Assembly: GCA_017465745.1 (NCBI GenBank)
Contig: JAFTVM010000006.1
Location: 1 to 64,000, forward strand
Origin: Oscillospiraceae bacterium
GTDB lineage: Bacteria > Bacillota > Clostridia > Oscillospirales > Oscillospiraceae
Direction of reading: 5' to 3'
Length of the DNA: 64,000 nucleotides
Each line of letters begins with the position of its first letter. Position 1 is the stretch's first letter. Under the pieces are notes generated by a model. The model searched no databases. It was not told the DNA's origin and saw only the letters and a program-made list of their open reading frames with translations. Of the stretch, positions 13,803-48,388 are shown in pieces. The translations under genes and the position numbers were made by a program.

Positions 13803-14342
13803 TCAAATCAAATGCTGATATTTCGTTTCTGTCACAATATAGCCCCTCCCGGGCATCGGCTGCCACTGATAGCGATTCCTGTTTTCGCCAGGGAATAAGT
13901 GCTCCATGATAGCTGCGATTACACCCCCGTGGGTGATGACGCAGGTATCCTGACGAATCTGCGAAAAAGCCTGCAGCACACGCCCAGTCATCTGCATACC
14001 GCTTTCGCCGTCGGGGGGAATATTCGCTTCGTTGTCCCCAGTGAGCCAGCGCTGATAATCCGAATCCTCTTTCAGCTCCTCATAGCCGTGCATTTCAAAG
14101 ATTCCGAAGTCCATCTCCCGGAACCGGGGATCGACCTCATACGGAACATCACCGAATAATATATGCAGTGTCTCATTTGTCCGCTTCATGCCGCTGGTCA
14201 GGAAGCGGACATTTTTGATGTCGTAATGCAGCTTTTGAAGTTCTGCTCTGCCGGCGTCTGACAGGGACAGGTCGGTGTTGCCGCAGTAAAGGTGGCGCTC
14301 ATTGGCCTCCGTCTTTCCGTGACGGATCAGATAAATCCTCAT
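13803..14342 (-). CDS. cobC: CobC-like histidine phosphatase (alpha-ribazole phosphatase)
   Basis: 179 residues. The histidine-phosphatase signature LIRHGKTEAN (phospho-accepting His in RHG) is at the N-terminus and the second His is in VITHGGVIAAIM; a conserved EMDFGIFE motif is also present. It overlaps the CobU-like gene by four bases (ATGA) at the end of a cobalamin-salvage gene run, which makes alpha-ribazole 5'-phosphate phosphatase, or the equivalent late phosphatase step, the best reading. As a superfamily it could act on other phosphates; the operon context decides. Confidence 0.82.
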   Translation of the reverse strand: MRIYLIRHGKTEANERHLYCGNTDLSLSDAGRAELQKLHYDIKNVRFLTSGMKRTNETLHILFGDVPYEVDPRFREMDFGIFEMHGYEELKEDSDYQRWLTGDNEANIPPDGESGMQMTGRVLQAFSQIRQDTCVITHGGVIAAIMEHLFPGENRNRYQWQPMPGRGYIVTETKYQHLI

Positions 14343-14701
14343 TTCAACCGCTGCTCCAATCCACAGAAGATTCGGCTGACCTGAGCGGCTTCCCTGCTCA
14401 GATACCGGGCGAGCCTGCCGGTTTTCTGGCGCCAGGCCCGATTCTCTGCCCCCATGGGAACCACACCGCAGAAGATGTCCCGGAGAATCAGGATACAGTC
14501 CTGCCACTCCTCCCGGTGAGCCTGGAAGAAACTGACGGGATCGGGATGGTGATAAGCAAACTCCTCGATGCAATAGATGCACCGCCTGGAGAAATCGATC
14601 TCGCCTCTGGTACAGGTGCATACATCCTCATCGCAGATTTGGAAAGCGGATTTTACGTAGTCCAGCTTACCCTGGTACGCTCCGCCGATAATCAGAATCA
14701 T
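14339..14701 (-). CDS. Short CobU-like protein with degenerate P-loop
   Basis: 120 residues against about 180 for normal CobU. The start MILIIGGAYQGKLDYV is recognisably the CobU P-loop region, but the Ser/Thr after GK is replaced by Leu. The middle is much shortened, with Cys-rich stretches (ICDEDVCTC, CIYCIEEF). The end (DIFCGVVPMGAENRAWRQKTGRLARYLSREAAQVSRIFCGLEQRLK) is the conserved CobU tail. It is translated between CobS and CobC, with AAGGAGG at the start and a 4-base overlap at the end. A full CobU is encoded two genes upstream, so this copy may be a partial-function or regulatory partner. No activity can be assigned. Confidence 0.75.
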   Translation of the reverse strand: MILIIGGAYQGKLDYVKSAFQICDEDVCTCTRGEIDFSRRCIYCIEEFAYHHPDPVSFFQAHREEWQDCILILRDIFCGVVPMGAENRAWRQKTGRLARYLSREAAQVSRIFCGLEQRLK

Positions 14702-14711
14702 ATTGGCCTCC

Positions 14712-15449
14712 TTAAATCAGAGCATAGACCGCAGCGGCACAAAGCTCGCCCATGGTCAGGGCGTAGCCGGAAATGTCGCCGTTCATGCCGTCCAGGGATT
14801 TGTATGCCCGCCGCAGCGCCAGTCCGCAACCGGCAAGGCAGCCAATCAAAGCAAAACCATACTGGCCGCAGACCAGGAAGCCCGCCGCAAGGAAGATGCA
14901 GAGCATGACGGTCAGAACGATGATGTGGGATTTCGGCTTCTTCTGATCCGCATACTGGCTGGTGGACATGGGCTTCAGCCCGGTCACCGCCAGGGCAGAG
15001 CAGCACCGGCTCACCGCCGGGATGAATAACAGGATCATGTAATTGGCATTGTCAGGCGCGGAAGCGAACAGCGCAAACTGCGCCAGCATCAGCAGCACGA
15101 TGCCGATGACCGCAAAGCTGCCCACATGGGAATCCTTCAGGATCTCCCGCCTGCGCTCCAGATCACGCCAGGACTTCACCGCATCGGTCACATCCATGTA
15201 GCCGTCCAGATGGATAAAGCCTGTTGCGATGTAGGGATAGGCACTCAGAACAAGCCCCATCACCAGCGCAGGCAGATCCAGCCATCTGCAAAGCCATGCC
15301 AGTATCGCCCAGATTGCGCCGATCTCCAAACCGACAATGGGCAGAAACAGCAGCATCTTTTCCTTCGCCTTCTCGTCCCAGAGCTGGGGCGCCGGGATGG
15401 CGCAGAACATACTCCGGCACATGGCAAGGGCGTGTAAATATCGCTTCAT
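14712..15449 (-). CDS. cobS: Adenosylcobinamide-GDP ribazoletransferase CobS
   Basis: 245 residues, integral membrane protein with about six helices. CobS motifs are visible: SMFCAIPAP near the start, the GFIHLDGYMDVTDAV segment with the conserved metal-binding acidic residues, GSFAVIG and DGMNGDISGYALT near the end. It joins adenosylcobinamide-GDP to alpha-ribazole(-phosphate) to finish the cobalamin nucleotide loop. Its ATG overlaps the CobU stop by four bases, showing tight co-translation. Confidence 0.95.
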   Translation of the reverse strand: MKRYLHALAMCRSMFCAIPAPQLWDEKAKEKMLLFLPIVGLEIGAIWAILAWLCRWLDLPALVMGLVLSAYPYIATGFIHLDGYMDVTDAVKSWRDLERRREILKDSHVGSFAVIGIVLLMLAQFALFASAPDNANYMILLFIPAVSRCCSALAVTGLKPMSTSQYADQKKPKSHIIVLTVMLCIFLAAGFLVCGQYGFALIGCLAGCGLALRRAYKSLDGMNGDISGYALTMGELCAAAVYALI

Positions 15450-15982
15450 ATACGCAGGTCTCCTTTATGGATGGTCAGCTGCCCGGCCGACACTTCAATG
15501 ACGGTATCGCATATCGCTGCCAGACGGCGGTCAATATCCGCCAGACACTTGCGGTACATTTCGGTGCTTTCAGAATAACGCTCGGAATCGGAATAGATAT
15601 AGTCGCTGACAAAGATCGCGTGGCGAACGGTTTTTGCAAAACGGATCAGTTCATCGGCGCAGCGGTCCGCGGCAGCCAGGTCCATTTCATAGTTTTTCTC
15701 TGCCGGGAACAGGGTGTTTTGGATCAGGGACGTGATATTGTCCACCAAAAACACACCGTCCTTATCCGCAACAGACAGGATATTATAGAAACACTCCACA
15801 GTCTGAAAGCCCATACCGTCACGGTCTTCAATGTGACGGCGGATTCTTTCATGATCTTCCTCCCCGGAAGGAATCATGGTTGCCACATAGTAATGCTTTC
15901 CGCCTTTGGCCAGGGCGACGGCGAGATCCTGAGCCAGGGAAGATTTGCCACTTTTGGCTCCGCCGGAAATAAAGCAGGTCAT
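15446..15982 (-). CDS. cobU: Adenosylcobinamide kinase / guanylyltransferase CobU
   Basis: 178 residues, full length. Intact P-loop ISGGAKSGKSS at the N-terminus, ATMIPSGEEDHERIRRH with the guanylylated-His region, VDNITSLIQN and the VSDYIYSDSERY segment. It phosphorylates adenosylcobinamide and transfers GMP to it. It overlaps both neighbours (cobT and cobS) by four bases. With CobT, CobS and CobC it covers nucleotide-loop assembly from imported cobinamide. No corrin-ring synthesis gene is present in the window. Confidence 0.95.
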   Translation of the reverse strand: MTCFISGGAKSGKSSLAQDLAVALAKGGKHYYVATMIPSGEEDHERIRRHIEDRDGMGFQTVECFYNILSVADKDGVFLVDNITSLIQNTLFPAEKNYEMDLAAADRCADELIRFAKTVRHAIFVSDYIYSDSERYSESTEMYRKCLADIDRRLAAICDTVIEVSAGQLTIHKGDLRI

Positions 15983-17067
15983 TTGGCTCCCTCCACGGTG
16001 AACTTGTCGCCCTGGCGGATCTCGTCCAGGTAGCCGTCATCGATGCCGGCCTGGTCAAATGTTGCCATGTCATTGATGACGGCGCAGGCGGCGCTCAGAA
16101 CCTCGAAGGCCAGCGGGCAGCCGCTTCCCTCTCCCAGCCGCATACCCAGCAGGAACAGGGGCTGAAGCCCCATGGCATCCATTGCGAGCTTGTAGCCGAT
16201 CTCATAGGAGGCATGGCTGGGGATCAGGAAGCCGCCCACATTGGGACAGAGCTTCCAGGCGCACAGGGCGGCAACGGCGGAAATGAAGCCGTCGATGACC
16301 ACCGGACGGCGTGTCGCCGCCGCGCCGATGAAAGCACCGCACATGGCAGCAATGTCAAAGCCGCCCACCTTGGAAAGTACATCGATCACATCGTTTTTAT
16401 CGGGCTGATTGACTGCGATTGCCTGACGGATCACTGCTTTCTTTTTCCGGAAGCTGTCGTCCGTAATGCCGCCGCCCCGCCCCGTCACTTCCTCCACATC
16501 TGCATCCAGCAGGACGGAGAGCACTGCGGAGGAAGTCGTGGTGTTGCCGATGCCCATTTCACCAATGCCGATGACATCTGCATCGGTGTTTTGAGCCAGT
16601 TCCATGCCGGTGCGGATCGCCTGCTGCGCCTGTTCTCTGGTCATGGCAGGACCAACAGCAATATTCTGTGTACCACAGGCGATCTTGCGGTTCAGCACAG
16701 CAGATTCTTTTATGTCCCCATTGACTCCCACATCACAGACGGTGATACCGCAGCCAAAATGCTTACAAAGTGTGGAAGCACCGGTCTTTTGCCTTGTCAG
16801 GTTGATGGTCTGCATCAGGGTTACGGACTGGGGCGCACTGGATACACCCTCCGCCACCACGCCATTATCCGCGGCAAACACCAGCAGATGTTTTTTCTCG
16901 ATTTTATTATGGACCTTTCCGGTGATGCCTGCCAGCTGGATGGATAAATCCTCCAGCCGTCCAAGGCTTCCGGGGGGCTTGGCCAGCTGCGCCTGCCGCT
17001 GACGGGCTGCATCCATGGCAGTTTGATCCAGGGGCTTCACAGCCGAAATAAACACATTCAAATCCAT
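15979..17067 (-). CDS. cobT: Nicotinate-nucleotide--dimethylbenzimidazole phosphoribosyltransferase CobT
   Basis: 362 residues. CobT motifs: AKPPGSLGRLEDLSIQLAG, FAADNGVVAEGVS, GEMGIGNTTTSSA, GRGGGI and the C-terminal IPSHASYEIG box that carries the catalytic glutamate. It makes alpha-ribazole phosphate from a lower-ligand base and nicotinate mononucleotide. Two ATGs are adjacent (17070 and 17067); I chose the second because the AGGAG spacing is better. It ends in a 4-base overlap with cobU. Confidence 0.95.
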   Translation of the reverse strand: MDLNVFISAVKPLDQTAMDAARQRQAQLAKPPGSLGRLEDLSIQLAGITGKVHNKIEKKHLLVFAADNGVVAEGVSSAPQSVTLMQTINLTRQKTGASTLCKHFGCGITVCDVGVNGDIKESAVLNRKIACGTQNIAVGPAMTREQAQQAIRTGMELAQNTDADVIGIGEMGIGNTTTSSAVLSVLLDADVEEVTGRGGGITDDSFRKKKAVIRQAIAVNQPDKNDVIDVLSKVGGFDIAAMCGAFIGAAATRRPVVIDGFISAVAALCAWKLCPNVGGFLIPSHASYEIGYKLAMDAMGLQPLFLLGMRLGEGSGCPLAFEVLSAACAVINDMATFDQAGIDDGYLDEIRQGDKFTVEGAK

Positions 17068-17076
17068 CATATCTCC

Positions 17077-17826
17077 TCAAATCAGGCCATTTTCAGCCAT
17101 CCACTGCATGGACGGTCCGGCCTTCATCAGTTCCATGGTAAAGGTAGCCTCCGGGCACAATGCTTCCGCCTCCAGCAGAAATTCCTTCATGGGGATGGTG
17201 CCTGCATGCAGGGCATTGTGCTGATCCCGGGAGGTATCATTATTGTGTACATGGAAATGGCTGATATGGGGCGCGCAGCTTTCCAGCCACTCCATCACAG
17301 GCGTTTTGGAGTAGGCGTTCACATGACCAATATCCAGGCACAGACCCAGCCGGGGATCATCCACCCCCTTCACGATGTCCAGAAGCCACCCAGGCTCTGT
17401 TTCCAGCACATTTTCCAGAACGATCCGGACGCCGGGATCCTCTGCCAGAAACCCTTTCCAAAACAGGATGGACTGCTCGATATACCACGCCGGGAAATAG
17501 ATGAGAGGATGGTAGCCGCCGTGGATAATGACCTTGGTGCTGCCGTAGCGTTTGGCAAGGTCAATGGCCTGACGGTAGCGGGATGCCGCCAGTTCCCTGG
17601 CTTTCAGGTCAATGGCACAGGGAAACAACTCGTTATATGGGGCGTGGAGGGTGCTGAATGGGATACCCTCCAGCTTCTTTTTGACCACCCCATCCACACC
17701 TGCGAACTTCTGGTCCATATTCCATGCGGTGCAGTATTCGGCGATCTCCAGATTCACGCCGTATTCCTTTGCCACCCGTACCGCATCGGGCGCAATGGTC
17801 GAAAGATAGATTTTCATTTTATCCAT
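17077..17826 (-). CDS. TIM-barrel sugar-phosphate isomerase/epimerase-like protein
   Basis: About 249 residues of the xylose-isomerase-like TIM-barrel (AP endonuclease 2) superfamily: STLHAPYNELFP, KVIIHGGYHP, IVLENVLETEPGW, LGLCLDIGHVNAYS and ISHFHVHNNDTSRDQH, which supply the usual His/Glu/Asp metal ligands. No family member with this role in B12 metabolism is known to me. It lies between the importer and cobT with a short overlap upstream, so a role in corrinoid or lower-ligand chemistry is possible. Start 17826 is preferred for GGTGA; 17838 and 17817 are alternatives. Confidence 0.8.
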   Translation of the reverse strand: MDKMKIYLSTIAPDAVRVAKEYGVNLEIAEYCTAWNMDQKFAGVDGVVKKKLEGIPFSTLHAPYNELFPCAIDLKARELAASRYRQAIDLAKRYGSTKVIIHGGYHPLIYFPAWYIEQSILFWKGFLAEDPGVRIVLENVLETEPGWLLDIVKGVDDPRLGLCLDIGHVNAYSKTPVMEWLESCAPHISHFHVHNNDTSRDQHNALHAGTIPMKEFLLEAEALCPEATFTMELMKAGPSMQWMAENGLI

Positions 17827-20449
17827 GTTGTTCACCATTTTCCATCAATCCGTATTTCACTTTCACCCGGTCCAGCTTTTCCAGCATGGGTTCCGACAGG
17901 AACCACAGGAACATGACGGTGGCCAGCGCATGGATGGCATCGGCAGGAACACCGGTGATGCAGGCTGTCAGGATCATCTGCCAGTCAGGGTTCGGCTGGT
18001 ACATGAGAATGGAAGCCGGGTTCATCACACCGCCGTAGATCAGGAAGGTCACCAGACCGCCGAACACACTCAGGGAAAAGCGTTCACGGTGCAGAATACC
18101 CTTGCGGAACAAAACACCTGCCAGCAGGCCCATCATACCCATGGCAAACATCTGCCAGGGCGTCCAAGGGCCCTGACCAAACAGCACATTGGAGCAGAAC
18201 ATGGTCATGGCTCCCACCATAAATCCAGCCTCCGCGCCGAAAGCAACACCCGTCAGGATCACCATTGCCGCAACCGGCTTGAATCCCGGCAGTGCAAAGA
18301 ATACCGCACGGCCACCGATGGCCAGGGCACTCAGGACTGACAGGATCACCAATTCCCTGGCCTGGGGCTTCCGGCCCTCAAAGATCAAGAAAAAGGGCAG
18401 CATTGTTTCAAAGATGATAGCAAAGGAAATCAGCATGTATTTGCGGCCGCCATCGATCTTCAAACCACCCCAGATCGTCAGAGGAATCAGCAGCACCGAA
18501 AGCAGGATCGTCGCTTTCGTGCGGTTACTGAGCTTCCCCTTCATCAGCCGCTGCTCCCGAAGGGAGGATTTCCGGCTGATGCAGGCTGCAAAGATACCGA
18601 AGGACATAAACATAACTGCATAAATCCAGCTGTACTGTCCGATGAAGTTACCCCCCTGATAAAGCCCGCTCAGATCCAGCGCCAGGGAGGTATACAGCAG
18701 CAGGCCAAAAAAGACGCTGCCGGTAATAAAGCCCAGGATCCTGCGCCATTTGGGAAGCTTTTCCGGCTTGCGCTCCTGGGGCGGTTCCAGGTTGACCTTT
18801 TGCCGGTACGGCGGCATTTCGCTCTCAGGTACTTTACCGCCGCAGGCGAGAATCACATCCGCCGCCGTCACCGCATTGGGGAGTCTATGCCGGGCCATCC
18901 GATTGGCCGCTGTGGTGTAAAAACTCTTGCCCGCAAAGAAGGGCTGAGGCGCATCCATAGTCACAATGCCGCCGTCAAAGAACAAACCGCAGCGATCCGC
19001 GTATTGGGCACAGAATTCCACATCGTGACTTACCATGATGACGCAGACACCACGGTTTGTCAGTTCTTTCAGAATTTGGGCGAAGGTCAGCTTGAAATCG
19101 TTGTCCACGCCCTTGGTGGGTTCATCCAGCAAAAGAATTTCAGGCTCCTGGAGCAGCACCTTGGCCAATGCAGTTCGTTGCTGCTCACCGCCGGACAGGT
19201 CATAGGGATGCCGGTCCAGCAGTCCCTCCAGGCGGCACAGGGCCACCATCTCTCCGATCCGGTCGGCAACCTCATGGAGCTTTTTACCGGGAAACACGGA
19301 CAGAAGCTCCTCCCGCACATTCTTTTTCACCAGGAGCATCTGGGGATTCTGGGGCAGTGCGGCAACCTTTTTAGTTCTGCAGGTCATCTTTCCCCGGTAT
19401 GGCCTGCGGACGCCGCTCAGCACGGACAGTGTGGTGCTTTTGCCCGTGCCGTTGCCGCCCAGAATACACAGAAGCTCACCGGGATAGGCCTTCATGGATA
19501 CGCTTTTCAGAATGTCCGGGGATTCCCTTTCGTAACGGAACCACACCTCGTCCAGAGTCATGCAGGGATCTTCCGCATGGGTGCGTGCTGTTCTTTCCGG
19601 CACATTGCCCAGGGTGTGTGCATCCGCCCAGGCTGTCAGCTGGCTTCTGCCATCGCTGACCGTCATGGGACAGGGCGTATTCCAATTCAGGCTGCTCCAG
19701 ATCCGCATGGGGGTGGGCATGGAATGGAGCATGGGATGAGACTGCCTCCTGAGGATTTCGAAGGTTCCCTCCGGCGTATCATCCGCGATCAGCACACCCC
19801 CATCCAGGATCAGCAGGCGGCTGGCCATGGGAATCACATCCTCCAATCGATGCTCGCAGATCAGGATTGTGGTACCCAGTTCCCGGTTGATCCGCCCCAG
19901 GGTCTGCAAAAAGTCCGTGGCGGCGATGGGATCCAGCTGACTGGTGGGCTCGTCCAGGATCAGAATATCCGGCTGCAGCACCATGATGGATGCCAGATTC
20001 AGCAGCTGCTTCTGACCGCCGGAAAGCTGTGTCACTGACCTGTGGAACCATGTCTGGATGCCGAAAAAGCTGGCCATTTCCGCCACCCTTCCCCGGATAG
20101 CGGCATTGTCCACCCCAAGGCTCTCCAGGCCAAAGGCCAGCTCATGCCAAACCTTGTCTGTGACGATCTGGCTGTCGGGGTCCTGCAATACGAAGCCGAT
20201 CTTCGCCGCCTGGGTGCGGTTGTCCACTTCATCCAGCGGTATCCCGTTGTACAGGATCTCGCCTTCCTTTTTACCATGAGGTGCAAGGACAGTCTTCAGC
20301 TGCCGCAGCATGGTGGATTTTCCGCATCCGGAAGGACCAGCCAGCACGGCGAAATCTCCCTGCCTGAGCGTCATGGACACATCACGAAGCACCGCCATCT
20401 CCTGCTCCGGGTATGTAAAGGTTAAATTTTGGATCTTAAAGAGTTCCAT
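17819..20449 (-). CDS. ECF importer fusion: two EcfA-type ATPases plus S component
   Basis: 876 residues with three parts in one chain. Residues 1-230: ATPase with Walker A GPSGCGKST (38-46), Q-loop VLQDPDSQ, signature LSGGQKQ and LILDEPTSQLD. Residues 290-530: second ATPase with GGNGTGKST, signature LSGGEQQR, LLLDEPTKGVD and switch-His VSHD. Residues 590-860: a membrane domain of nine or ten helices whose last part (SALAIGGRAVFFALPGFKPVAAMVILTG, then FGQGPWTPWQM) is an ECF substrate-binding (S) component. EcfT is encoded just upstream with a 28-base overlap. Next to cob genes, the likely cargo is a corrinoid or alpha-ribazole-type precursor; this is inference. The start follows GGAGG. Confidence 0.88.
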   Translation of the reverse strand: MELFKIQNLTFTYPEQEMAVLRDVSMTLRQGDFAVLAGPSGCGKSTMLRQLKTVLAPHGKKEGEILYNGIPLDEVDNRTQAAKIGFVLQDPDSQIVTDKVWHELAFGLESLGVDNAAIRGRVAEMASFFGIQTWFHRSVTQLSGGQKQLLNLASIMVLQPDILILDEPTSQLDPIAATDFLQTLGRINRELGTTILICEHRLEDVIPMASRLLILDGGVLIADDTPEGTFEILRRQSHPMLHSMPTPMRIWSSLNWNTPCPMTVSDGRSQLTAWADAHTLGNVPERTARTHAEDPCMTLDEVWFRYERESPDILKSVSMKAYPGELLCILGGNGTGKSTTLSVLSGVRRPYRGKMTCRTKKVAALPQNPQMLLVKKNVREELLSVFPGKKLHEVADRIGEMVALCRLEGLLDRHPYDLSGGEQQRTALAKVLLQEPEILLLDEPTKGVDNDFKLTFAQILKELTNRGVCVIMVSHDVEFCAQYADRCGLFFDGGIVTMDAPQPFFAGKSFYTTAANRMARHRLPNAVTAADVILACGGKVPESEMPPYRQKVNLEPPQERKPEKLPKWRRILGFITGSVFFGLLLYTSLALDLSGLYQGGNFIGQYSWIYAVMFMSFGIFAACISRKSSLREQRLMKGKLSNRTKATILLSVLLIPLTIWGGLKIDGGRKYMLISFAIIFETMLPFFLIFEGRKPQARELVILSVLSALAIGGRAVFFALPGFKPVAAMVILTGVAFGAEAGFMVGAMTMFCSNVLFGQGPWTPWQMFAMGMMGLLAGVLFRKGILHRERFSLSVFGGLVTFLIYGGVMNPASILMYQPNPDWQMILTACITGVPADAIHALATVMFLWFLSEPMLEKLDRVKVKYGLMENGEQHG

Positions 20450-21306
20450 TTATGATCCTCCATCAAATCGATGATCAGCGGCAGAAGACACATTCCGCCG
20501 TAGCAAAGATAGGCCGTGATCTGTACCGGGCCAAAAATTGCACCGGACAGGCTGGGATAGTAGGTCCACCCCATCAGACCGGATAAATGCGGAACTGCCG
20601 CTCCGGCGCTCAGCAGCGCAAGAACAGCAAGGGTAATACCATCCCGTTTTTCAAACAGGTAAATGGAAAAAGCTGTCCTGCCCTGAACGCCATAGCCACG
20701 GCTTTTCATGGAGTCTGCCGATACGATGGACTGCTCCATGGCCCAGCTGACAGTTGCAGAAAAGGCCGCCAGGGCCTGCTGCAGTTTCTCTTTGGTATTC
20801 TCCGGCTTGTGCATGGCCTGCTGGGTGCGCAGGACACTTTGCAGGAAGTTCTTGAACCGGGGTACAAACCGCAGCGTCATGGAAATCAGCAGGGACATAG
20901 CCGGGACAAGACGGCCAAACAGATAAATGATTTTGTCTGAGGTAAAGACCGTATTGCAGCAGTTAAACCAAATTATGGAGGCGCCCATCATCACGGCCGA
21001 AGCCAGACCGAAGCAGATGGCTTCCAGGGTAATGGGATTATCATTGGGCAGATACCACAGCACCGTGACGCCCTCGTGATTGAACAGCGGATTCATCACC
21101 GCCATCATCACCAGGATGGGCAGCAGGTATCCCACCTGCCGCAGCATCCCCCTTCTCCCCTGCAAATACAGCAGGTAGGCGCCCCCACTGAACATGGAGA
21201 TCAGCAGATACACCGGCTGCTGGATGAACATGGTCATACCAAGGGCTGCCGCGAAAAACGCCAGATTCACCGCCGGGTGATAGCCGGAAAAGGCATCATT
21301 CTTCAT
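20422..21306 (-). CDS. ECF transporter T component (EcfT)
   Basis: 294 residues with membrane helices and the T-component coupling motifs, seen as SADSMKSRGYGVQGRT and the SMTLRFVPRFKNFLQSV region. The reading frame is open further upstream, but the start at 21306 (MKNDAFSGYHPAVNLAFF) has the usual EcfT N-terminus and overlaps the end of the DUF4430 lipoprotein gene by 11 bases. It would join the fused ATPase/S protein encoded next in one importer. Confidence 0.9.
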   Translation of the reverse strand: MKNDAFSGYHPAVNLAFFAAALGMTMFIQQPVYLLISMFSGGAYLLYLQGRRGMLRQVGYLLPILVMMAVMNPLFNHEGVTVLWYLPNDNPITLEAICFGLASAVMMGASIIWFNCCNTVFTSDKIIYLFGRLVPAMSLLISMTLRFVPRFKNFLQSVLRTQQAMHKPENTKEKLQQALAAFSATVSWAMEQSIVSADSMKSRGYGVQGRTAFSIYLFEKRDGITLAVLALLSAGAAVPHLSGLMGWTYYPSLSGAIFGPVQITAYLCYGGMCLLPLIIDLMEDHKWNSLRSKI

Positions 21307-21808
21307 AGTCCGCTCCAAGGTCCGCGCCCAGGTCACAGGTATAGCTGAACACGATGGCATCACCATCCGCCAGGGTATAGCCGGAGCATCCAAGCCCCGG
21401 ATAGACCCCGTTGACGCTGAACATCCAGCCGGACTGGGGACCGCAGTCAAACTCGTAAAGATTGCCGATGCCCTCAATGTAAACGGAGCCATAGATCTGA
21501 GCGTCCGTATACTCAAAATGAATTTTCTGCTGACGCAGCACCCGGCGGAACATATCAAATACGGAATCTCCTGCCTCAAATTCCACCTGAGTCTGCGCCA
21601 GAAGCTGACCGTTCTGCGGAACCAGGGCTGCCTTTTCTGCTGTCATCGCATCCAGATGATCCAGCAGCGTATCGCAGCGGATCTCCATGGTGCAGGTCAG
21701 TTTTCCGTCGCCATTGGTATCCGGCACATTTACCGCATCGGCACCGCCGCAGCCATACAGTGTCAGCGTCAGCACAAATGCCAGAATGAAGCACAGTGTT
21801 CTTTTCAT
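21296..21808 (-). CDS. Lipoprotein with transcobalamin-like beta domain (DUF4430)
   Basis: 170 residues. Lipoprotein signal MKRTLCFILAFVLTLTLYGC with lipid-attached Cys20, then one domain of the DUF4430 / transcobalamin-like C-terminal family: CTMEIRCDTLLDHLDA, VFDMFRRVLRQQKIHFEYT, YIEGIGNLYEFDCGPQSGWMFSVNG, SGYTLADGDAIVFSYT. In animal B12 carriers this fold is the beta domain that covers bound cobalamin. The gene sits between an alpha-barrel lipoprotein and EcfT, so a role as surface corrinoid receptor for the importer is likely. Start at 21808 is fixed by GGGAGGA. Confidence 0.85.
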   Translation of the reverse strand: MKRTLCFILAFVLTLTLYGCGGADAVNVPDTNGDGKLTCTMEIRCDTLLDHLDAMTAEKAALVPQNGQLLAQTQVEFEAGDSVFDMFRRVLRQQKIHFEYTDAQIYGSVYIEGIGNLYEFDCGPQSGWMFSVNGVYPGLGCSGYTLADGDAIVFSYTCDLGADLGADYEE

Positions 21809-21893
21809 CAATCTTCCTCCCGAGTCATTATTTCGTGTATTGAAAATCGCTTTTGAATCGCAATGAATATACAAGGTTATGGTATGCTTTGCT

Positions 21894-29777: not shown

Positions 29778-29791
29778 GGCTTCCGCCTCCC

Positions 29792-30928: not shown

Positions 30929-30946
30929 AAGCAGTACCTGCTTCCG

Positions 30947-31882
<936 letters not shown>

Positions 31883-35562: not shown

Positions 35563-35603
35563 GTGAAGAAAAGGAAGGCGGGGCAGGGGCTTTGCCCCGC
35601 CTT
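35563..35603 (-). terminator. Terminator-like hairpin after the 1,864-residue dockerin gene
   Basis: AAGGCGGGGCA pairs with TGCCCCGCCTT (7-base loop); the minus strand continues CCTTTTCTTC. Probably a partial terminator inside the gene run. Confidence 0.6.
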
Positions 35604-35621
35604 CGTTGTTATGGTGCTACA

Positions 35622-41325: not shown

Positions 41326-43074
41326 TCAGGCCATACGGCGCTTCTTAACGGCCAGCAGAACGATGGCTGCGGAGGCCAGGACCATCATGGTGACCCATGC
41401 CATGACCATGCTGTTGTCGCCGGTCTGGACAGAATCCATGTTGTAGTTGCAGTTGTCACAGGCATTGTCCTTGTTGGTATCAACATGACCAACCGCGGGG
41501 ATCTCCCCGGTCTTGGTCTCACCGCAGACGGAGCAGGTGTAGGTCTTGACGCCCTTCTTGGCGCAGGCAGCGGAGGTAGTCACCTTACCCTCGTCCCAGG
41601 TATGTGCACCGGTTGCTGCAACAGCTTCAATCCTGGTCTCGCCGCAGACGGTGCAGACAAAGGTCTTCTCACCTGCTTCGGTGCAGGTGGCTTCCTTGGT
41701 CACAGTGCCCTCATCCCAGGCATGGCCAGTGGCGGGAATCTCAACAGCAGCATCAAATTCGCCGCAGACGGTACAGCTGGCAGTCTTTTCGCCAACCTCG
41801 GTACAGGTGGGCTCCTTGGTCACGGTGCCCTCGTCCCAGGCATGACCGTTGGCAGCAACGGCTTCCGTCCCGGTCTCGCCGCAGGAGGCGCAGGTGTAGG
41901 TCTTGACGCCTTCCTCGGTGCAGGTGGGCGCAGTGGTCACAACGCCCTCACCGAAGCTGTGGCCGGTGGCGGGGATCACTTCGGCAGCAGTCTTTTCACC
42001 ACAGACAGAGCAGGTGCCGGTCTTCTCACCGTCCTCGGTGCAGGTAGGCTCCTTGGTCACGGTGAAGTTGGTGACTGCATGACCCAGAGCATCAATGGAT
42101 TCCGTGTAGGTATCGCCGCAGCCGGAGCAGGTGTAAGTCATCTCACCGGCCTCGGTGCAGTTGGGAGCCTTGGTCTGCTCACCAACATAGTCGTGAGCCA
42201 GCTTGTCGGTTGTTTCCTGTGCAACGATGGTAACGCCGCAGACGGAGCAATGAGAACCCTCGGTCAGACCGGTGCTGGTGCAGGTTGCGGGGACAGCGGG
42301 ATCCTTCACTTCGGTATGACCGGTGGCAGGAACAACACTCTGGGCAACGATGGTCTCGCCGCAGACAGAGCAATGGGCGCCTTCGGTCAGACCGGTCTCG
42401 GTGCAGGTTGCGGGAACAGCTGCATCAGTCACGGGGGTGTGGTCAGCAGTTTCGATCTCCTCGGTATAAGAAGCACCACAGCCCTCGAAGGTACAGGTGT
42501 AGGTCTTAACACCCTTGGCGGCGCAGGTGGGCGCGGTGGTCACAACGCCGTCATCCCAGGTGTGCTCCTTGCAGACCAGAACGGAAACGCTGCTCTTGTA
42601 GGTCAGATCGCCGACATTCTTGCCCTGGGCATTCTGAACATAGGCATTCTTGAACTCCAGAACGGTGTTCACGTGATCGGCGGCGATGTCTTCCTTGGCC
42701 TGGAAGGTCACGGTCACAATGGTACCTGCCTCAAAGCCAACAGGCTCATAATTGGCAAAGTCCAGATAAGTAAACAGGACCTTGTCCTCCCTGGCATGCT
42801 TCCGGGCTGCAAAAGCACTCAGGCTTGCATAGTAGCTGCCCTTTTCAACACTGACAAACTCCAGGACGCTGCCGTCATAGTGCAGCTCGCCCTGCATCAT
42901 AGTTGCACCCTCGGAGATGTCGATATCCTCTTCCAGGGTAATGGTGACCGTCAGGGAGTCACCGGCGCTTACATTGTCGGAACTTACGCCCACATCGATG
43001 TTGGCAGCATAGGCAGTCACCGCCAGGCCGCACATCAGGACAAGCGCAAGGACCAAAGAAATCATTTTCTTCAT
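41326..43074 (-). CDS. Cell-surface cohesin protein (single-cohesin scaffold)
   Basis: 582 residues. Signal peptide (1-23); a cohesin domain at 24-167 (VGVSSDNVSAGDSLTVTITL, GELHYDGSVLEFVSVEKGS, AGTIVTVTFQAKEDI); about ten Cys-rich repeats of 35-40 residues with two CxxC pairs each (CTEAGEKTFVCTVCGETR, ATGHAWDEGTVTK) at 168-545; then VQTGDNSMVMAW, a membrane helix and KKRRMA. The tail resembles sortase substrates of the PQTGD kind, with Val in place of Pro. The protein would hold dockerin proteins at the surface, and three dockerin genes lie in the same run. The start follows AAAAGGAG. Confidence 0.85.
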   Translation of the reverse strand: MKKMISLVLALVLMCGLAVTAYAANIDVGVSSDNVSAGDSLTVTITLEEDIDISEGATMMQGELHYDGSVLEFVSVEKGSYYASLSAFAARKHAREDKVLFTYLDFANYEPVGFEAGTIVTVTFQAKEDIAADHVNTVLEFKNAYVQNAQGKNVGDLTYKSSVSVLVCKEHTWDDGVVTTAPTCAAKGVKTYTCTFEGCGASYTEEIETADHTPVTDAAVPATCTETGLTEGAHCSVCGETIVAQSVVPATGHTEVKDPAVPATCTSTGLTEGSHCSVCGVTIVAQETTDKLAHDYVGEQTKAPNCTEAGEMTYTCSGCGDTYTESIDALGHAVTNFTVTKEPTCTEDGEKTGTCSVCGEKTAAEVIPATGHSFGEGVVTTAPTCTEEGVKTYTCASCGETGTEAVAANGHAWDEGTVTKEPTCTEVGEKTASCTVCGEFDAAVEIPATGHAWDEGTVTKEATCTEAGEKTFVCTVCGETRIEAVAATGAHTWDEGKVTTSAACAKKGVKTYTCSVCGETKTGEIPAVGHVDTNKDNACDNCNYNMDSVQTGDNSMVMAWVTMMVLASAAIVLLAVKKRRMA

Positions 43075-43176: not shown

Positions 43177-45660
43177 TTAGCCCTCCGCGGGGAAGGTGTC
43201 GATCGTACCATAGTAGCAGGAAACGATCAGATTGGCATCCTGGGTATCAATGACGCCGTTGCCATCCACATCAGCCAGAGCAAGCTGTTCCTCAGTCAGT
43301 TCTTCGCTGCCGTAGTAGGAAGAAACCACCAGGTTGGCGTCCTGGATGTCGATGACGCCGTCCATGTTCACATCGCCTAGTTCATACTCGGATTCAGGCT
43401 CCTCAACAGTGATGGTCACATGGTACCAGTTGTTGGCGCTGTCGCTGACACAGAAGGAAGTGCCACACGCTGCCAGGTTGATGGTGGCCTCGGTGACATT
43501 GCCTGCGAACTCCTCCCAGTTGTGAGAACCATTGTAAATGTACATCTGGCCCCACAGAACTTCGTCCGTGATATTCAGGAAGGTGACCTCGGCAGTGCCT
43601 GCGGGAACGGTGACGGTCAGCTTCTGCGCCTGCATGGTACCGCAGGTCTCGGTGCCGTTATCCACCAGATCCATTTCCTTGCCGCCAGCCAGAACGGTGA
43701 TGCCGTAAGTAGAGTTGTAGGAGGGTTCGGCTTCCTCGCCAGCTTCCACAGTCAGCAGCATGACAGCGGGGCTGGAGGAATTGGAGACCAGATAGTAGGT
43801 GCCCAACTCCAGACCGGCGGTATCGATGGTCACCCTGCCGTTTTCGTCGGTGGTGCCCATCAGGGTGCCGCCAGTGGGAGTGGTCTCGATCTCCTCCCTG
43901 GCGAAGAGGTAAACATTGTGGCCCGCGCCTTCCAGATAGACGGGGGTGGTGTAGTTGGCCATATCCTCGCCGGTGCGGTACAGGTCCAGATCAAAGGACT
44001 GGCCCTTGTTGACAGTCTTGGTGACCAGGGCCTTTGCACCGAAGTGGTGATAAGTACCAACCTTGCCGGAGTTGTCGTTGTAGCGCATGGAGACGACGTC
44101 ACCATCGCTCAGCTTGATCTGGTCGCAGGTGGCACCCCAGCCGGGAGCGCCCAGAGGATACTCATAGTTGACGTAGTAGTTGAAATTATAGCCGAAGTCC
44201 CACATGGTGAAGAATGCGGAACCGGCGGTGGCACTGTAAACGCTGAAGCCGTTCCAGCCGCCCTCGCCTGCCAGCCAGCCCTGGCCTGCATCGGCGGGAT
44301 CCAGGCCGTTGTAGTGGACCTCAGTGAGCCAGATCAGCCCATGCAGCAGGGTGACCACACCGTCGGCAGTCTCAGCAGTGCCAGGCGTCTGGCTGGCCTG
44401 ACCGTCAACATAGCAATCGGGATTGTAGTACAGGTACTCCATGTCGTACAGTGCCAGATCGAAGTACGGAACCGTCACCGACTCCAGCGCCCAGATCACA
44501 TCGCCCTGCTCCACAAAGTGGTCGCCCTCTTCCACGGAGAAGTAGAAGGTCACATCGCCGTCGCTGGGAATTGCCACCACGCCCTCAACGGTAATGACCA
44601 GATCAGCGGTGACATTGGTCACGGTGTAAACGCCGTTCCCGTCGGGGGTGACGACCTCGCCGTTGACCTTGACCACCATATTGGCGGCGTCATAGCCGTT
44701 CTTGATGTCCACGGTGAAGGAGTAGTCTTCGCCAGTCTTGACATAGCCAGCGCCGTCGGTGGTGTAGCCGTTGCCGGCTGCCAGGGTCACCAGGAAAACG
44801 GTGGTGTCCTCCGCATAGGAGAAGGTGAAGCCTTCCAGCACATTGCCGCCTTCTGCATCCCAGAAGCAAACCGCTACACCGGTACCTGCTTCCTCGGTAA
44901 GCAGGTCGGTAATGGGAACTGCCACGGTGACAGAACCATCGGCATTTGCGGTTGCGGGCCACTGCTTCTGGGGAGAATAGGAGCCGTCAAGGTGATATTC
45001 TACGACGAGGGCCTGACCGCCATAGGTATAGATCGTATTGGCAGGATAGGTGACATAAGCATAGTTGGAGCCGCGGGGAACGACTGCGTGATAATAGGGA
45101 ATCCAGCCGTCGATCATCTCCTGCTCGGTGACCAGCACATCGCCCTCCATATCGGTGGTGATGCTTTGATAGGCACCGACCTTTTCCTGCTCGGCGAAGG
45201 TCACATGGTAATACTTACCGCCGCAGTTAATGCACAGTCCGTCATAGTTGACAATGTCAGCCTCGAAAGCGGGCATAGCGTTGCCGCCGAAGGTATGATC
45301 AGCACCATCAACCATGTACTGAATGTTTGCGTAGGTTGCGGTGGCGTCTTCCTTCAGCTCCACAGTCACAGTGGTGGTACCGGCAGGAACGGTCACACTG
45401 AAGAGCTGGACGTCAGCGCTGACATAACGTCCGTCGCAGCCGGCCTGGATGCCGCCGTCAACCAGCTCCATTTCCACACCATTGACCTTAATGACATACG
45501 CAGCAGCTTCCGCAGGGTCTGCAACATGGTCGGGATCCGCCTCGCTGCAGGTGGCGCCGAAATTGGCACCATCAGATATTTCAGCCGCGAACACGTTCAC
45601 GGGCAGCATTCCCAGCACCATGCACAGAGCAAGGAACAGGGAACACATTCGTTTCTTCAT
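43177..45660 (-). CDS. Secreted dockerin protein with transcobalamin-like module
   Basis: 827 residues. Signal peptide MKKRMCSLFLALCMVLGMLPVNVFA almost identical to that of the giant protein; beta-sandwich modules; residues about 365-600 a DUF4430-like module (VPYFDLALYDMEYLYYNPDCY, GSAFFTMWDFGYNFNYYVNY, DQIKLSDGDVVSMRY) paralogous to residues 1335-1550 of the giant protein; two further beta modules; and a type I dockerin at about 760-827 (DVNMDGVIDIQD, DVDGNGVIDTQD). It is the first gene after a cobalamin riboswitch. Start 45660 is chosen for AGGAGG and the signal peptide; an earlier in-frame ATG has neither. Confidence 0.87.
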   Translation of the reverse strand: MKKRMCSLFLALCMVLGMLPVNVFAAEISDGANFGATCSEADPDHVADPAEAAAYVIKVNGVEMELVDGGIQAGCDGRYVSADVQLFSVTVPAGTTTVTVELKEDATATYANIQYMVDGADHTFGGNAMPAFEADIVNYDGLCINCGGKYYHVTFAEQEKVGAYQSITTDMEGDVLVTEQEMIDGWIPYYHAVVPRGSNYAYVTYPANTIYTYGGQALVVEYHLDGSYSPQKQWPATANADGSVTVAVPITDLLTEEAGTGVAVCFWDAEGGNVLEGFTFSYAEDTTVFLVTLAAGNGYTTDGAGYVKTGEDYSFTVDIKNGYDAANMVVKVNGEVVTPDGNGVYTVTNVTADLVITVEGVVAIPSDGDVTFYFSVEEGDHFVEQGDVIWALESVTVPYFDLALYDMEYLYYNPDCYVDGQASQTPGTAETADGVVTLLHGLIWLTEVHYNGLDPADAGQGWLAGEGGWNGFSVYSATAGSAFFTMWDFGYNFNYYVNYEYPLGAPGWGATCDQIKLSDGDVVSMRYNDNSGKVGTYHHFGAKALVTKTVNKGQSFDLDLYRTGEDMANYTTPVYLEGAGHNVYLFAREEIETTPTGGTLMGTTDENGRVTIDTAGLELGTYYLVSNSSSPAVMLLTVEAGEEAEPSYNSTYGITVLAGGKEMDLVDNGTETCGTMQAQKLTVTVPAGTAEVTFLNITDEVLWGQMYIYNGSHNWEEFAGNVTEATINLAACGTSFCVSDSANNWYHVTITVEEPESEYELGDVNMDGVIDIQDANLVVSSYYGSEELTEEQLALADVDGNGVIDTQDANLIVSCYYGTIDTFPAEG

Positions 45661-45796
45661 GCAAAGAAACCTCCTTGTAAAAAAGTATGTATGCAAACGC
45701 CGGAAAAGGCGCTAAGCGGGGTTAAGGCCGGCCTGCTTCGGCGCGGTTCACCGCCGGAGCATTTGACTTAAGCTGCACATCTTTATTTCTAAAGTA

Positions 45797-45992
45797 CACA
45801 GTTTGTAGGTCTTCTGACTGACACGTTCAGACGCGTTTGCGTCAGCGTCCGCTCCCCGCCTTCTCAGGTTTCCCCAATGACCCGCTTTCGCGGAAAGGAA
45901 GCAGGCTTCGTGCATACAGCACCGCGGGTCCAACCCGCCGTGTTCCGGTTTCTCACCGGATTCCCTTGTTCAGCAGAACAAGAATACGTGTC
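45797..45992 (-). ncRNA. Cobalamin riboswitch A (before the dockerin/cohesin run)
   Basis: On the minus strand the sequence has the core GGGAATCCGGTGAGAAACCGG, the CCCGCGGTGCTGTATG element, the GGGGAAACCTGAGAAGGCGG segment and a B12 box GTCAGTCAGAAGACCTAC near 45800-45820. This is the layout of a cobalamin riboswitch. It ends about 140 bases before the dockerin gene; the stretch between holds hairpins (for example CGCC/GGCG near 45710) and ends in CTTTTTT, so termination control is possible. Confidence 0.88.
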
Positions 45993-46082
45993 TCATGGAA
46001 TTCCAATCGGTCGCGTATTTGCCACAATCTAAGCCGGTTATCTATATGGGGCCGCCGATGAACGGCGGTTGGTTTCGCTTGG

Positions 46083-46236: not shown

Positions 46237-46668
46237 TTACTGGATTTGGCTTTTCTTCTCTTTCTCCCGTTTCTGTTTCTTTTCCTCCTGCTCTCTGAGC
46301 CGCTGTTGGGCCTTCTGCTTCTTGATCGCCTTCTTCTGACGGTAGACCATCTTCTGATGTTCCACTTCATGGATGTATCTGGCAAAAACGGAGGTTTTGT
46401 TTGCAGTTGCAGGCTGACGCAGATCGGCCATCCGCAGCACCTGATCCCAGGAGTCAAAACGCGACAGAATCATCTCTCCGCCAACGATCTCTCTGGGCCA
46501 GGGAGAATGTCCCAGCTTCCCGGCGCAATCTCTCACATAAGCGAGGAGCTGATCCTCTGTATCATTTTCATGCTCCTGTGCAAACTGCTGCTCCTGTGCC
46601 TGCAGCGACTCCATAACCATACGGCGTATGACCGCTTCGTAAATCTCATGTCTTTTCGGATAAGGCAT
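46237..46668 (-). CDS. HNHR-repeat (homing-endonuclease-associated) DNA-binding-like protein
   Basis: 143 residues. The central stretch AYVRDCAGKLGHSPWPREIVGGEMILSRFDSWDQVLRMADLRQP matches the homing endonuclease-associated repeat pattern, a small helical DNA-binding module. The N-terminus is acidic and Gln-rich, and the C-terminus a long basic helix (YRQKKAIKKQKAQQRLREQEEKKQKREKEKK). There is no HNH nuclease motif, so a regulator role is more likely than a mobile endonuclease. It lies directly behind two tandem cobalamin riboswitches with terminators. The start follows AAGGAAGAG. Confidence 0.75.
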   Translation of the reverse strand: MPYPKRHEIYEAVIRRMVMESLQAQEQQFAQEHENDTEDQLLAYVRDCAGKLGHSPWPREIVGGEMILSRFDSWDQVLRMADLRQPATANKTSVFARYIHEVEHQKMVYRQKKAIKKQKAQQRLREQEEKKQKREKEKKSQIQ

Positions 46669-46692
46669 TGTCCCATCTCTTCCTTAGATACA

Positions 46693-46728: not shown

Positions 46729-46804
46729 CCTGAAAATAGGCGCACTACCCCTCCAGGAGCAATGCGTGTACACCTTGAGAAACGCGTCGCAGCATACAAT
46801 GATT

Positions 46805-46992
46805 CCATTGATCCATGTAAGTCTCCTGGCTTGTGCTTCGCGTCAATACGCACGGCCCCATTCCTACCTTCTCAGATCTCTCCAATGGCGGACTTTCGTC
46901 CAGCGGTCTCCCGCTTCGGATGGTGCCTGGCACTCACAGTACCGGTCGTGTGGGTTCTTACCCCGTTCATCTAAAGGCAAATACCTGGATAT
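46805..46992 (-). ncRNA. Cobalamin riboswitch B (before the HNHR gene)
   Basis: The minus strand shows GGGGTAAGAACCC, the ACTGTGAGTGCC element, GGAGAGATCTGAGAAGGTAGG and the B12 box AAGCCAGGAGACTTACATGG (46815-46833 region). A terminator lies between it and the HNHR start codon. Confidence 0.85.
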
Positions 46993-47043
46993 TTCTATCT
47001 GTGCGGTAAATGCCAGCATGGAACAAAATATGTAGTTGTAAAA

Positions 47044-47077: not shown

Positions 47078-47140
47078 CCGTAATTCTCGCCCCAGTTCTT
47101 GTCCCTCGTCAGGGTATATCAATCCCCTGACGCCCTTCAA

Positions 47141-47332
47141 GCTCGATCATGGCCGACATTCTGGCTCATGCATTGGGGAGAAAAACCTCCTGCGTTTGTA
47201 TTCCGCCTTCCCAGTTTCCCAGTGACCGGATCACTCCATGAATACAAACTCCTGCATATACAGCAACGGGCAAAGCTCCGGACTCTCACCGGATTTCCTA
47301 ATCTCCGCACCTGTCAAAAACGACAGTCTTGA
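47141..47332 (-). ncRNA. Cobalamin riboswitch C (first of the tandem pair)
   Basis: The minus strand holds GGAAATCCGGTGAGAGTCCGG, GCCCGTTGCTGTATATG, GGTCACTGGGAAACTGGGAAGGCGG and the B12 box GAGCCAGAATGTCGGCC. No gene lies between it and riboswitch B, so both leaders appear to act in series on the same transcript. Confidence 0.88.
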
Positions 47333-47451
47333 TGGGAGACGCCATGCAGCTTATTCATTTATGAAAACATTATATCATTCCAACACCAAATGTCAATAGA
47401 TACGCATTGTCTAATGATATATTTTTATCGATTAAAACCGGGACTTAACAG

Positions 47452-47480
47452 TTGAAAATGTTTTCCGGTGGTGATAAAAT
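47452..47480 (+). promoter_or_regulatory. Promoter of riboswitch D
   Basis: -35 TTGAAA (47452-47457) and -10 TAAAAT (47475-47480) with a 17-base spacer put the transcript start near 47487, right at the first paired element of the riboswitch. Confidence 0.6.
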
Positions 47481-47484
47481 AACA

Positions 47485-47632
47485 TGGCTACCGTGGGAAA
47501 CAGGTGCAACTCCTGTACGGGTCCGCCGCCGTGAAGTACATCCGAAAAGCTGTACCAGTCGGTTTCACGAATAGCCAAATACTCGTTATAAGCTGCGAGC
47601 ACCAGCGAAGGAGAAAATGCTTATAAGGAGAA
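47485..47632 (+). ncRNA. Compact cobalamin riboswitch D with ribosome-site control
   Basis: GGCTACCGTGGGAAACAGGTG, then CAACTCCTGTACGG, CCGCCGCCGTGAAG, and later AATAGCC, which can pair with the first GGCTA. The core matches cobalamin riboswitches, but the aptamer is short (about 95 bases) with a weak B12 box, as in class II forms. Downstream TTATAAGC (47586-47593) pairs with GCTTATAA (47619-47626), which abuts the AAGGAG ribosome site, suggesting translational control. Confidence 0.75.
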
Positions 47633-47638
47633 CCTGAA

Positions 47639-48388
47639 ATGAAGAAACTGCTTTCCCTGCTGCTGGCTGTGGTCATGGTATTTGGTCTGATGGCCTGCAG
47701 CAACACCGACACCTCCGATCCCACTGAGGGCAATACCGAAGCCGATCCCACCGAGGCCACTGCGTCCAACGGTGCCGAGACCGCAGGTATTGCATTCAAC
47801 GTTGTCGTGACCGATCTGGACGGCACCGAGACCACCTTCGAGTACACCTCCGATGCCGAGTCTGTCGGCGCAGCCCTGGTCGCTGAAGGTCTGATTGAGG
47901 GTCATGACACCGAGTACGGTCTGTATGTGGACGCTGTCAACGGCATCACCGCCGACTGGGCCACCGAAAACGCCTACTGGGCATTCTACATTGACGGCGA
48001 GTACGCCATGACCGGTGTGGATGCCACCGCGATCACCGAGGGCGCTACTTACTCTTTCGTCAAGACCATCTCCTACACTGTTCTGGGTGAGGGTTCTACC
48101 ACCTTCTATGTCACTGTTGCCGATGTGGATGGCACCGTGACCAAGTTCCAGGTCAATACCGACGCTGCTACTGTTGGCGAGGCTCTGGTCGCCGTCGAGC
48201 TGATCGAGGGCCACGACACCGAGTATGGCCTGTATGTGGATGCTGTCAACGGCATCACCGCTGACTGGGATACAGAGAATGCTTACTGGGCATTCTACAT
48301 TAACGGCGAATACGCTGTGACCGGTGTGGATGCCACGGAGATCGTTGCCGGCACTACCTACGAACTGGTCAAGACTGTATCCGCGTAA
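47639..48388 (+). CDS. Lipoprotein with two transcobalamin-like (DUF4430) domains
   Basis: 249 residues. Lipoprotein signal ending FGLMAC, a short Thr/Glu/Pro linker, then two tandem DUF4430 domains of about 90 residues (50-145 and 150-247) that are near copies: both contain LIEGHDTEYGLYVDAVNGI followed by TADW, YWAFYI(D/N)GEYA and TGVDAT. The Trp/Tyr-rich YWAFYI loop corresponds to the SGWMFSVNG loop of the 21.3 kb lipoprotein. Expression sits behind cobalamin riboswitch D and a terminator follows at 48459. It is probably a surface corrinoid-binding lipoprotein; binding is inference. Confidence 0.88.
   Translation: MKKLLSLLLAVVMVFGLMACSNTDTSDPTEGNTEADPTEATASNGAETAGIAFNVVVTDLDGTETTFEYTSDAESVGAALVAEGLIEGHDTEYGLYVDAVNGITADWATENAYWAFYIDGEYAMTGVDATAITEGATYSFVKTISYTVLGEGSTTFYVTVADVDGTVTKFQVNTDAATVGEALVAVELIEGHDTEYGLYVDAVNGITADWDTENAYWAFYINGEYAVTGVDATEIVAGTTYELVKTVSA

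Follow-up and report, generated by a model that had tools for sequence, protein, structure and literature searches.

A probable corrinoid-salvage locus with a cohesin and dockerins in an Oscillospiraceae genome and its predicted resemblance to the transcobalamin plan

Non-cellulosomal cohesins and dockerins, DUF4430 domains in transcobalamins, capture of vitamin B12 at the cell surface and cobalamin uptake by energy-coupling factor (ECF) importers are each known already. The passages of the literature that we draw on describe non-cellulosomal dockerins on ABC substrate-binding proteins of the NikA/OppA and TroA types in anaerobic methanotrophic (ANME) archaea (PMC9012536), and cohesins and dockerins as putative adhesins in syntrophic sulfate reducers, where cobalamin is treated separately, as an auxotrophy (PMC10553843). 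They also describe BtuG of Bacteroides, a beta-propeller lipoprotein that works with BtuB and captures B12 at the surface ahead of the transporter (PMC6143338), and ECF-CbrT, an ECF-type importer for cobalamin and cobinamide (PMC5997447). Here, we report on a run of genes on the minus strand (45660 to 13803) of the window, by which we mean the whole stretch of 64,000 nucleotides analysed (positions 1–64000 of contig C113 in a 2.73-Mb assembly of an Oscillospiraceae bacterium, likely a gut inhabitant). The run encodes a cohesin protein (COH), three dockerin proteins (DOC1, DOC2 and DOC3), a toroid lipoprotein (TOR), a DUF4430 lipoprotein, an ECF importer and cobamide enzymes. That it is a cohesin- and dockerin-bearing corrinoid-salvage locus, with like loci in relatives, is well supported. 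Our reading, to which we assign a probability of about two in three, is that the dockerin proteins, two of which carry a domain like the beta domain of transcobalamin, plug into one surface cohesin and gather B12-type molecules for the neighbouring ECF importer. Among the matches listed in our literature searches, no publication joined dockerins with corrinoid capture or dealt with toroid-DUF4430-ECF operons.

The locus shares with cellulosomes the C-terminal type I dockerins and a cohesin protein with an anchor-like tail, and a related genome (G022) adds an adaptor and several cohesin proteins. Unlike a cellulosome, the run in the window is linked to riboswitches, has one cohesin per protein and contains no glycoside hydrolase match. 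The ANME proteins are similar in that dockerins sit on nutrient-capture proteins, but they are archaeal, and the cited passages mention neither a corrinoid nor an ECF system, nor any transcobalamin-like domain. The sulfate reducers also have non-cellulosomal cohesin-dockerin pairs, and the same paper covers cobalamin dependency. Transcobalamin, intrinsic factor and haptocorrin join an alpha/alpha toroid to a beta domain, in the order seen in one-chain bacterial relatives of our proteins and with predicted folds that match; in the window, by contrast, the halves are two bacterial lipoproteins encoded with an importer, and extra beta-like domains are found on dockerin proteins. The beta-propeller of DOC1 recalls BtuG, but in a PDB sequence search it matched only BamB chains, and DOC1 as a BtuG homologue thus has no support at the sequence level. 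The window differs from ECF-CbrT in encoding predicted extracellular binders alongside the importer.

The cohesin, the dockerins and the riboswitches

On the minus strand, the run begins with DOC3, COH, DOC2, a 1192-aa protein, a MoxR ATPase, a DUF58 protein, a TgpA/transglutaminase protein and DOC1. These are followed by TOR, the DUF4430 lipoprotein, the ECF T component, an ECF A-A'-S fusion, a CbiR-like TIM barrel, CobT, CobU, CobS and CobC. The intergenic gaps are at most 145 bases as far as CobS and approximately 370 bases before CobC, with its start as read.

A first-pass annotation of the window had proposed a surface cohesin protein at 41326–43074 and three secreted type I dockerin proteins beginning at 22937, 35622 and 43177, and Pfam bore out the cohesin and the three dockerins. 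COH (41326–43074, minus strand, like all genes of the run) matched PF00963 over residues 30–151 (E 9.9e-11; 42.4 bits against a curated cut-off of 24.1), as a type I cohesin does, and contains CxxC repeats. A signal-peptide-like start and a C-terminal QTGD-TM-KKRR tail (TM, transmembrane segment) were read by eye. The tail is a putative sortase-like or membrane anchor, from which surface sorting is predicted, and the genome has five sortase matches. DOC3 (43177–45660; the open reading frame extends to 45696, with a likely ATG start at 45660) combines a signal-peptide-like start, a transcobalamin-beta-like domain at approximately residues 378–560 (in the numbering of the longer frame) and a C-terminal type I dockerin (Dockerin_1, 4.3e-7). 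DOC2 (35622–41216) is a 1864-aa GLUG protein with a beta-like domain (approximately 1340–1520) and a C-terminal dockerin (9.3e-7), and DOC1 (22937–27484) consists of a cadherin-like part, a PQQ-type beta-propeller, Big_3 and a C-terminal dockerin (1.2e-6). All three Dockerin_1 matches lie above the Pfam cut-off, and their duplicated calcium-loop segments are visible by eye in the alignment.

Throughout the genome, Pfam found four dockerins, three of them inside the run, and three cohesins, on three contigs; the binomial probability of three of the four dockerins falling within a 32-kb run of the 2.73-Mb genome is ~6e-6. The fourth dockerin sits on an S8 protease. At C55 (L008 6368–11905), we observed a single reading frame that carries an S8 protease, an internal dockerin and a match to the cohesin family, and at C93 (L009 6259–10464) a cohesin protein with CxxC repeats adjoining a CHAP protein, whose dockerin-like repeats were read by eye and are unreported by Pfam. 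The run dockerins share 70–74% identity with one another and 21–27% with the dockerins beside the C55 and C93 cohesins; such a pattern would be expected if plug and socket were specific to each locus. Pfam gave no glycoside hydrolase match for any gene of the run, in line with the first-pass statement that no plant-fibre hydrolase is present, and a sub-threshold carbohydrate-binding match (Cbm74, 0.086) fell in 43177–45696. A cellulosome was rejected on the grounds that the three dockerin proteins carry no hydrolase domain and that COH has one cohesin, with no multi-cohesin scaffoldin.

The run is preceded on its own strand by two cobalamin riboswitches that score above the Rfam gathering threshold, one at 47134–47361 (RF00174, 40.1 bits) and the other directly upstream of DOC3, at 45787–45995 (47.4 bits). 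Two weaker candidates lie between or beside them. A candidate extra cobalamin riboswitch at 46799–47003 (minus strand) reached 20.4 bits with RF00174, against a threshold of 31.5; the interval 46799–47038 scored 55.8 bits with our own model R1, the training set of which included both strong window riboswitches, and a counterpart is present at the matching place in the relative G061 (L184 10618–10828). An adenosylcobalamin-type candidate on the plus strand (47472–47622; RF01482, 31.9 bits, E 0.0022, gathering score 50) stands ahead of a divergent gene for a lipoprotein with two DUF4430 domains (47639–48388, plus strand; PF14478, 3.6e-16; lipobox by pattern), which, being on the opposite strand, is outside the run's transcript. 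Moreover, a strong GC-rich hairpin with a T-rich tail (35574–35604, minus strand) lies between DOC2 and the 1192-aa gene and may be a terminator or processing site that splits the run. The first-pass description of one gene run behind cobalamin riboswitches thus holds as regards the two strong riboswitches and has to be amended for the divergent gene and the possible split; a single transcript for the whole locus was rejected on these two counts. Amid the riboswitches we also observed a small gene with an HNH_repeat (homing-endonuclease-associated) domain (46237–46668, minus strand). The same domain occurs in a small open reading frame just upstream of the toroid-dockerin gene of G041 (L089 19160–19459) and, in G022, within the region of the riboswitches (L086 2741–3148).

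Binding modules, importer and cobamide enzymes

The beta-like domain of DOC3 was missed by Pfam, a search of which gave no significant match. With its AlphaFold2 model (pLDDT 85.8), the top rows of VIA-align were the beta domains of haptocorrin, intrinsic factor and transcobalamin, and PDB entry 3u7z, titled putative metal binding protein, was also among the best matches. The corresponding domain of DOC2 is 51% identical over 145 columns; the alignment of the DOC3 domain (A5) comprised 16 rows. This moderate fold match predicts that DOC2 and DOC3 carry a domain closest to transcobalamin beta domains. Of the 92 homologues listed for the DOC3 domain, three have both a PQQ_2 propeller and a dockerin.

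DUF4430 had been placed in the transcobalamin beta-domain family by the first-pass annotation, and in print it is described, in the part of the report cited here, as the C-terminal part of transcobalamins (PMC4350170). The several DUF4430 modules claimed for the run were confirmed in part. Pfam found the domain in the lipoprotein at 21296–21808 (2.6e-17, within the frame 21296–21874), the candidate beta half of a clamp, and twice in the divergent lipoprotein. In the 1192-aa protein (31898–35476), which has CxxC motifs, a divergent DUF4430 domain at approximately residues 725–915 reached only 0.14 in Pfam, below the cut-off; hhalign of the single sequence against the DUF4430 profile gave a probability of 96.6.

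TOR (21944–22918), the candidate alpha half, is a lipoprotein with the alpha/alpha toroid fold of the transcobalamin/intrinsic factor family. It matched SQHop_cyclase_C at 8e-6, just under the cut-off, and is 65% identical to the homologue P0135, the toroid model of which matches terpene cyclases and transcobalamin/intrinsic factor. When the toroid was used in a PDB profile search, the matches listed were cyclases, copalyl diphosphate synthase and alpha-2-macroglobulin, and no transcobalamin was among them. In P0124, P0135, P0136 and P0140, a TOR-like toroid is followed by DUF4430 in a single chain; read from their sequences, these fused relatives give the two-domain plan of transcobalamin. 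In the window, toroid and DUF4430 are encoded by two separate genes and not, as in the transcobalamin family, joined in one chain.

The ECF importer and cobT/U/S/C named in the first-pass annotation were found in the run. The A-A'-S fusion (17819–20449; Pfam ABC_tran twice, ECF-ribofla_trS, ECF_trnsprt) supplies two ATPases and the S component. The T component (20422–21306) is assigned from a weak match (NCBIfam CbiQ-type, 8.7e-4, below the cut-off), its position and its conservation beside the ECF ATPase gene. Corrinoid as the cargo is predicted from the riboswitches and the gene context. Downstream, the CbiR-like TIM barrel (17077–17838) is a candidate cobamide-remodelling phosphodiesterase, with CbiR as its best NCBIfam match (2.2e-11; 43.7 bits against a cut-off of 105); CbiR has been characterised in Akkermansia, as described in the cited part of PMC7733943. 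The genes cobT, cobU, cobS and cobC (13803–17070; Pfam, with cobT above the NCBIfam cut-off) belong to lower-ligand assembly, and their products, together with the CbiR-like enzyme, would fit lower-ligand exchange. We found no CbiC, which acts in the synthesis of the corrin ring, in the window's genome or in G010, G022, G040 and G041; it is present in 24 of 61 genomes of the genus, G030 among them. Corrinoid salvage is therefore plausible, although the absence is suggestive only, because the completeness of the assembly is 95% and its contamination 7%. Elsewhere in the genome, at C54 (L191 4205–8001), a second DUF4430 protein and a second ECF set are encoded divergently, accompanied by a cobalamin riboswitch match that stays below the threshold. 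The toroid, the CbiR-like enzyme, the MoxR-DUF58-TgpA trio and the beta-like domain of DOC3 and DOC2 were unnamed in the first-pass annotation.

Related loci in the genus and beyond

The genus scan comprised 61 genomes (60 plus the window's own), with cohesins in 25, dockerins in 31, DUF4430 in 50 and cobalamin riboswitches in at least 60; these genomes and those reached via named loci may overlap. Among 42 clusters of cohesin and dockerin, at least six (in G000, G010, G022, G030, G041 and G044) are no more than 16 kb away from DUF4430 or from a riboswitch in the list, so B12 appears to be one of several uses of cohesin-dockerin pairs. The count used 92 DUF4430 rows, some of which come from repeats within a single frame or from near-doubled contigs (G038), and 150 listed riboswitch rows; part of the rows gave the same 6 of 42.

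The first-pass annotation had suggested a search for the same gene order in related genomes, and much of the order does recur. In G022, it is the same from the 1192-aa gene through CobC, behind riboswitches and a larger scaffold with several cohesin proteins and a 231-aa cohesin-dockerin adaptor. G063 resembles the window from the riboswitches to the ECF genes, over the fetched stretches. In G061, reached via a metagenome-assembled genome (MAG) from water-deer colon, one contig holds three riboswitches and a dockerin protein, together with a cohesin that shares 94% identity with COH and the first part of a DOC3-like protein. On a second contig, the run reaches from a dockerin end as far as the ECF genes, among which S and a second T are separate genes, and CobT/U/S/C are also present in the same record (L104). 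We also observed, behind riboswitches in G062 (L188 7086–12017), a 1643-aa protein with a cohesin and a DOC3-type domain in one chain. A compact version occurs in G010 and G041, where a toroid-dockerin protein is followed by a cohesin protein of 207 or 208 aa with one transmembrane segment (27.3 bits in the Pfam genome search for G041), then a DUF4430 lipoprotein, ECF-T and ECF A-A'-S. In G040, the toroid-dockerin protein of this version is followed by the contig end. The compact set of G041 has no adjacent riboswitch among the matches listed; R1 scored 24.8 bits there.

Toroid, DUF4430 and ECF genes travel together in Firmicutes. We named 80 toroid loci, the best 80 of at least 580 confirmed stretches, from Oscillospiraceae, other Clostridia, Paenibacillus, Flavonifractor plautii, Cellulosilyticum, Lutispora and others, and followed up 40 of them (39 genomes), and then six of those genomes, at genome level. 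With window- and relative-derived queries, DUF4430 was found in 75 of the 80 loci, ECF ATPases in 65 and the T component in 65. An R1 match above 25 bits was present in 49 loci, in 48 of them upstream on the toroid's strand, and R1 matches numbered 58 on that strand vs 1 on the other. The 18 riboswitches used to train R1 include one from the 80 loci (L113); the E-values of the model are rough, and a weak match in L104 (23.7 bits) was left out of the count. A Pfam scan of 77 toroid proteins, made after three giant ones had been left out, found SLH in 67, and SLH is therefore the usual toroid anchor. From this distribution, the cohesin-dockerin pair seems to replace SLH as the anchor in the window's group. 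As a separate observation, an Oscillospiraceae MAG outside the near relatives (L153 6000–8400) encodes an 803-aa protein with toroid, DUF4430 and dockerin matches, with no cohesin in its 12.5-kb stretch.

Proposed mechanism and competing explanations

In the mechanism that we propose, scarcity of corrinoid would lead the riboswitches, as members of their family, to permit expression of the run. COH would be held on the surface through its C-terminal anchor, and DOC1, DOC2 and DOC3 would dock on it, as one dockerin class encoded with one cohesin at one locus suggests. An outer layer for capture would consist of the beta-like domains together with the propeller and cadherin-like parts. The TOR and DUF4430 lipoproteins, judging from the toroid fold and the fused relatives, may clamp the corrinoid between the two of them in the manner of transcobalamin and intrinsic factor, and would pass it on to the S component of the ECF importer. 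Inside the cell, the CbiR-like enzyme and CobT/U/S/C would probably exchange the lower ligand. SLH-anchored toroids are the commoner plan, and cohesin-dockerin would act as the anchor here. The more far-reaching proposal of a bacterial intrinsic-factor system, in which a two-part clamp with the fold plan of human transcobalamin is displayed on a cohesin-dockerin "corrinosome" feeding an ECF importer, has in our judgement slightly better than even odds. If true, a conserved extracellular binder of transcobalamin plan would add a capture stage to corrinoid uptake, would place look-alikes of human B12 carriers in common gut and soil Firmicutes and would bear on competition for B12 in the gut, and the cohesin-dockerin version would be a case of the cellulosome linkage turned to use for a vitamin.

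Several results weigh against the proposed mechanism. Dockerins were found with our queries in 5 of the 80 toroid loci and cohesins in none within 10-kb flanks; cohesins beyond these stretches were sought in six genomes (G061–G064, G067 and G080), and those of G061, G063 and G064 lie farther up, beyond the fetched stretch, or on another contig. A riboswitch match above 25 bits is lacking in 31 of the 80 loci, some of which are on short contigs. In the genus, cohesin-dockerin pairs serve other surface proteins; of the 42 clusters, the six named above, a lower bound, are near B12 markers, and for one of them, G044, the stretch fetched gave no ECF match. The hairpin at 35574–35604 may stop transcription between DOC2 and the remaining genes. 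As to the folds, P0135 superposed on transcobalamin with a root-mean-square deviation of 20.8, the beta half of the model being of low confidence, and VIA-align ranked terpene cyclases (22.9) over intrinsic factor (18.5). The DOC3 domain had no Foldseek match at E ≤ 0.001, with a GH3 enzyme first at 0.038 and transcobalamin at 0.62–2.4; its fold is a beta-grasp, also found in MoaD-like proteins, and its hhalign alignment with the DUF4430 profile was weak (probability 38.5). We must also note that no beta-like domain was found in DOC1. The first-pass interpretation that the dockerin proteins dock on the cohesin and scavenge corrinoids is supported in part: the salvage locus, the like loci and the beta-like domain on two of the three stand well, and docking and corrinoid binding are predictions.

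The docked proteins might instead make up an adhesion or matrix layer, regulated by B12, whose targets are glycans, the host surface or other cells, with corrinoid import left to TOR, DUF4430 and ECF. We consider this unlikely, while granting that DOC1 and DOC2 are long repeat proteins with the cadherin-like, Big_3 and GLUG parts typical of adhesion, that DOC3 has the sub-threshold Cbm74 match, and that the other cohesins and dockerins of the genome are found on surface proteins, on the S8 protease and beside the CHAP protein. The transcobalamin-beta-like domain on DOC2 and DOC3 argues the other way, as does the toroid borne by the dockerin protein itself in G010, G041 and G040. The two further cohesins of the genome raise the question of partners: the run dockerins could pair with those of C93 or C55, or of other cells, and COH could take other dockerins. 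Given the single class formed by the three dockerins, their low identity to the dockerins beside the other two cohesins, and the pairing in G061 of like dockerins with the near-identical cohesin, we find this improbable.

A different ligand, such as heme, a metal chelate or another cofactor, would mean that the riboswitches report need and not cargo. DUF4430 is listed by Pfam as a domain of unknown function, the putative metal binding protein 3u7z is among the best matches, and the second DUF4430-ECF pair (C54) has a riboswitch match below the threshold only; nevertheless, such a ligand is quite improbable in view of the riboswitch linkage in 49 of the 80 loci, of the CobT/U/S/C genes and CbiR-like enzyme that the run also holds, and of the two-domain plan of transcobalamin. 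Finally, mobile dockerin and cohesin modules may have landed in a B12 operon by chance, both being widespread in the genus (31 and 25 of the 61 genomes). The arrangement recurs in G061 and G063, and in G022, G010, G040 and G041 with dockerins only 25–39% identical to those of the window, and we regard chance as very improbable.

As regards neighbouring genes, the MoxR ATPase, DUF58 and TgpA/transglutaminase trio (27504–31882, minus strand; Pfam, DUF58 just under the cut-off) recurs in G022, L104–L107 and L110, and DUF58 with TgpA in G016. Plasmids were searched for near matches to the cohesin-DOC3 piece, with none found. The flanks of the run encode GH65, GH3 and GH31 enzymes and an alpha-amylase-family enzyme fused to a HAD hydrolase (952–3270, minus strand), with no dockerin match in the flanks at E 1e-5. 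On the other side of the run, a protein at 50810–52369 (minus strand) combines Tp47 domains with a Shr-like heme-binding-protein domain, and FMN_bind and ApbE genes are found nearby.

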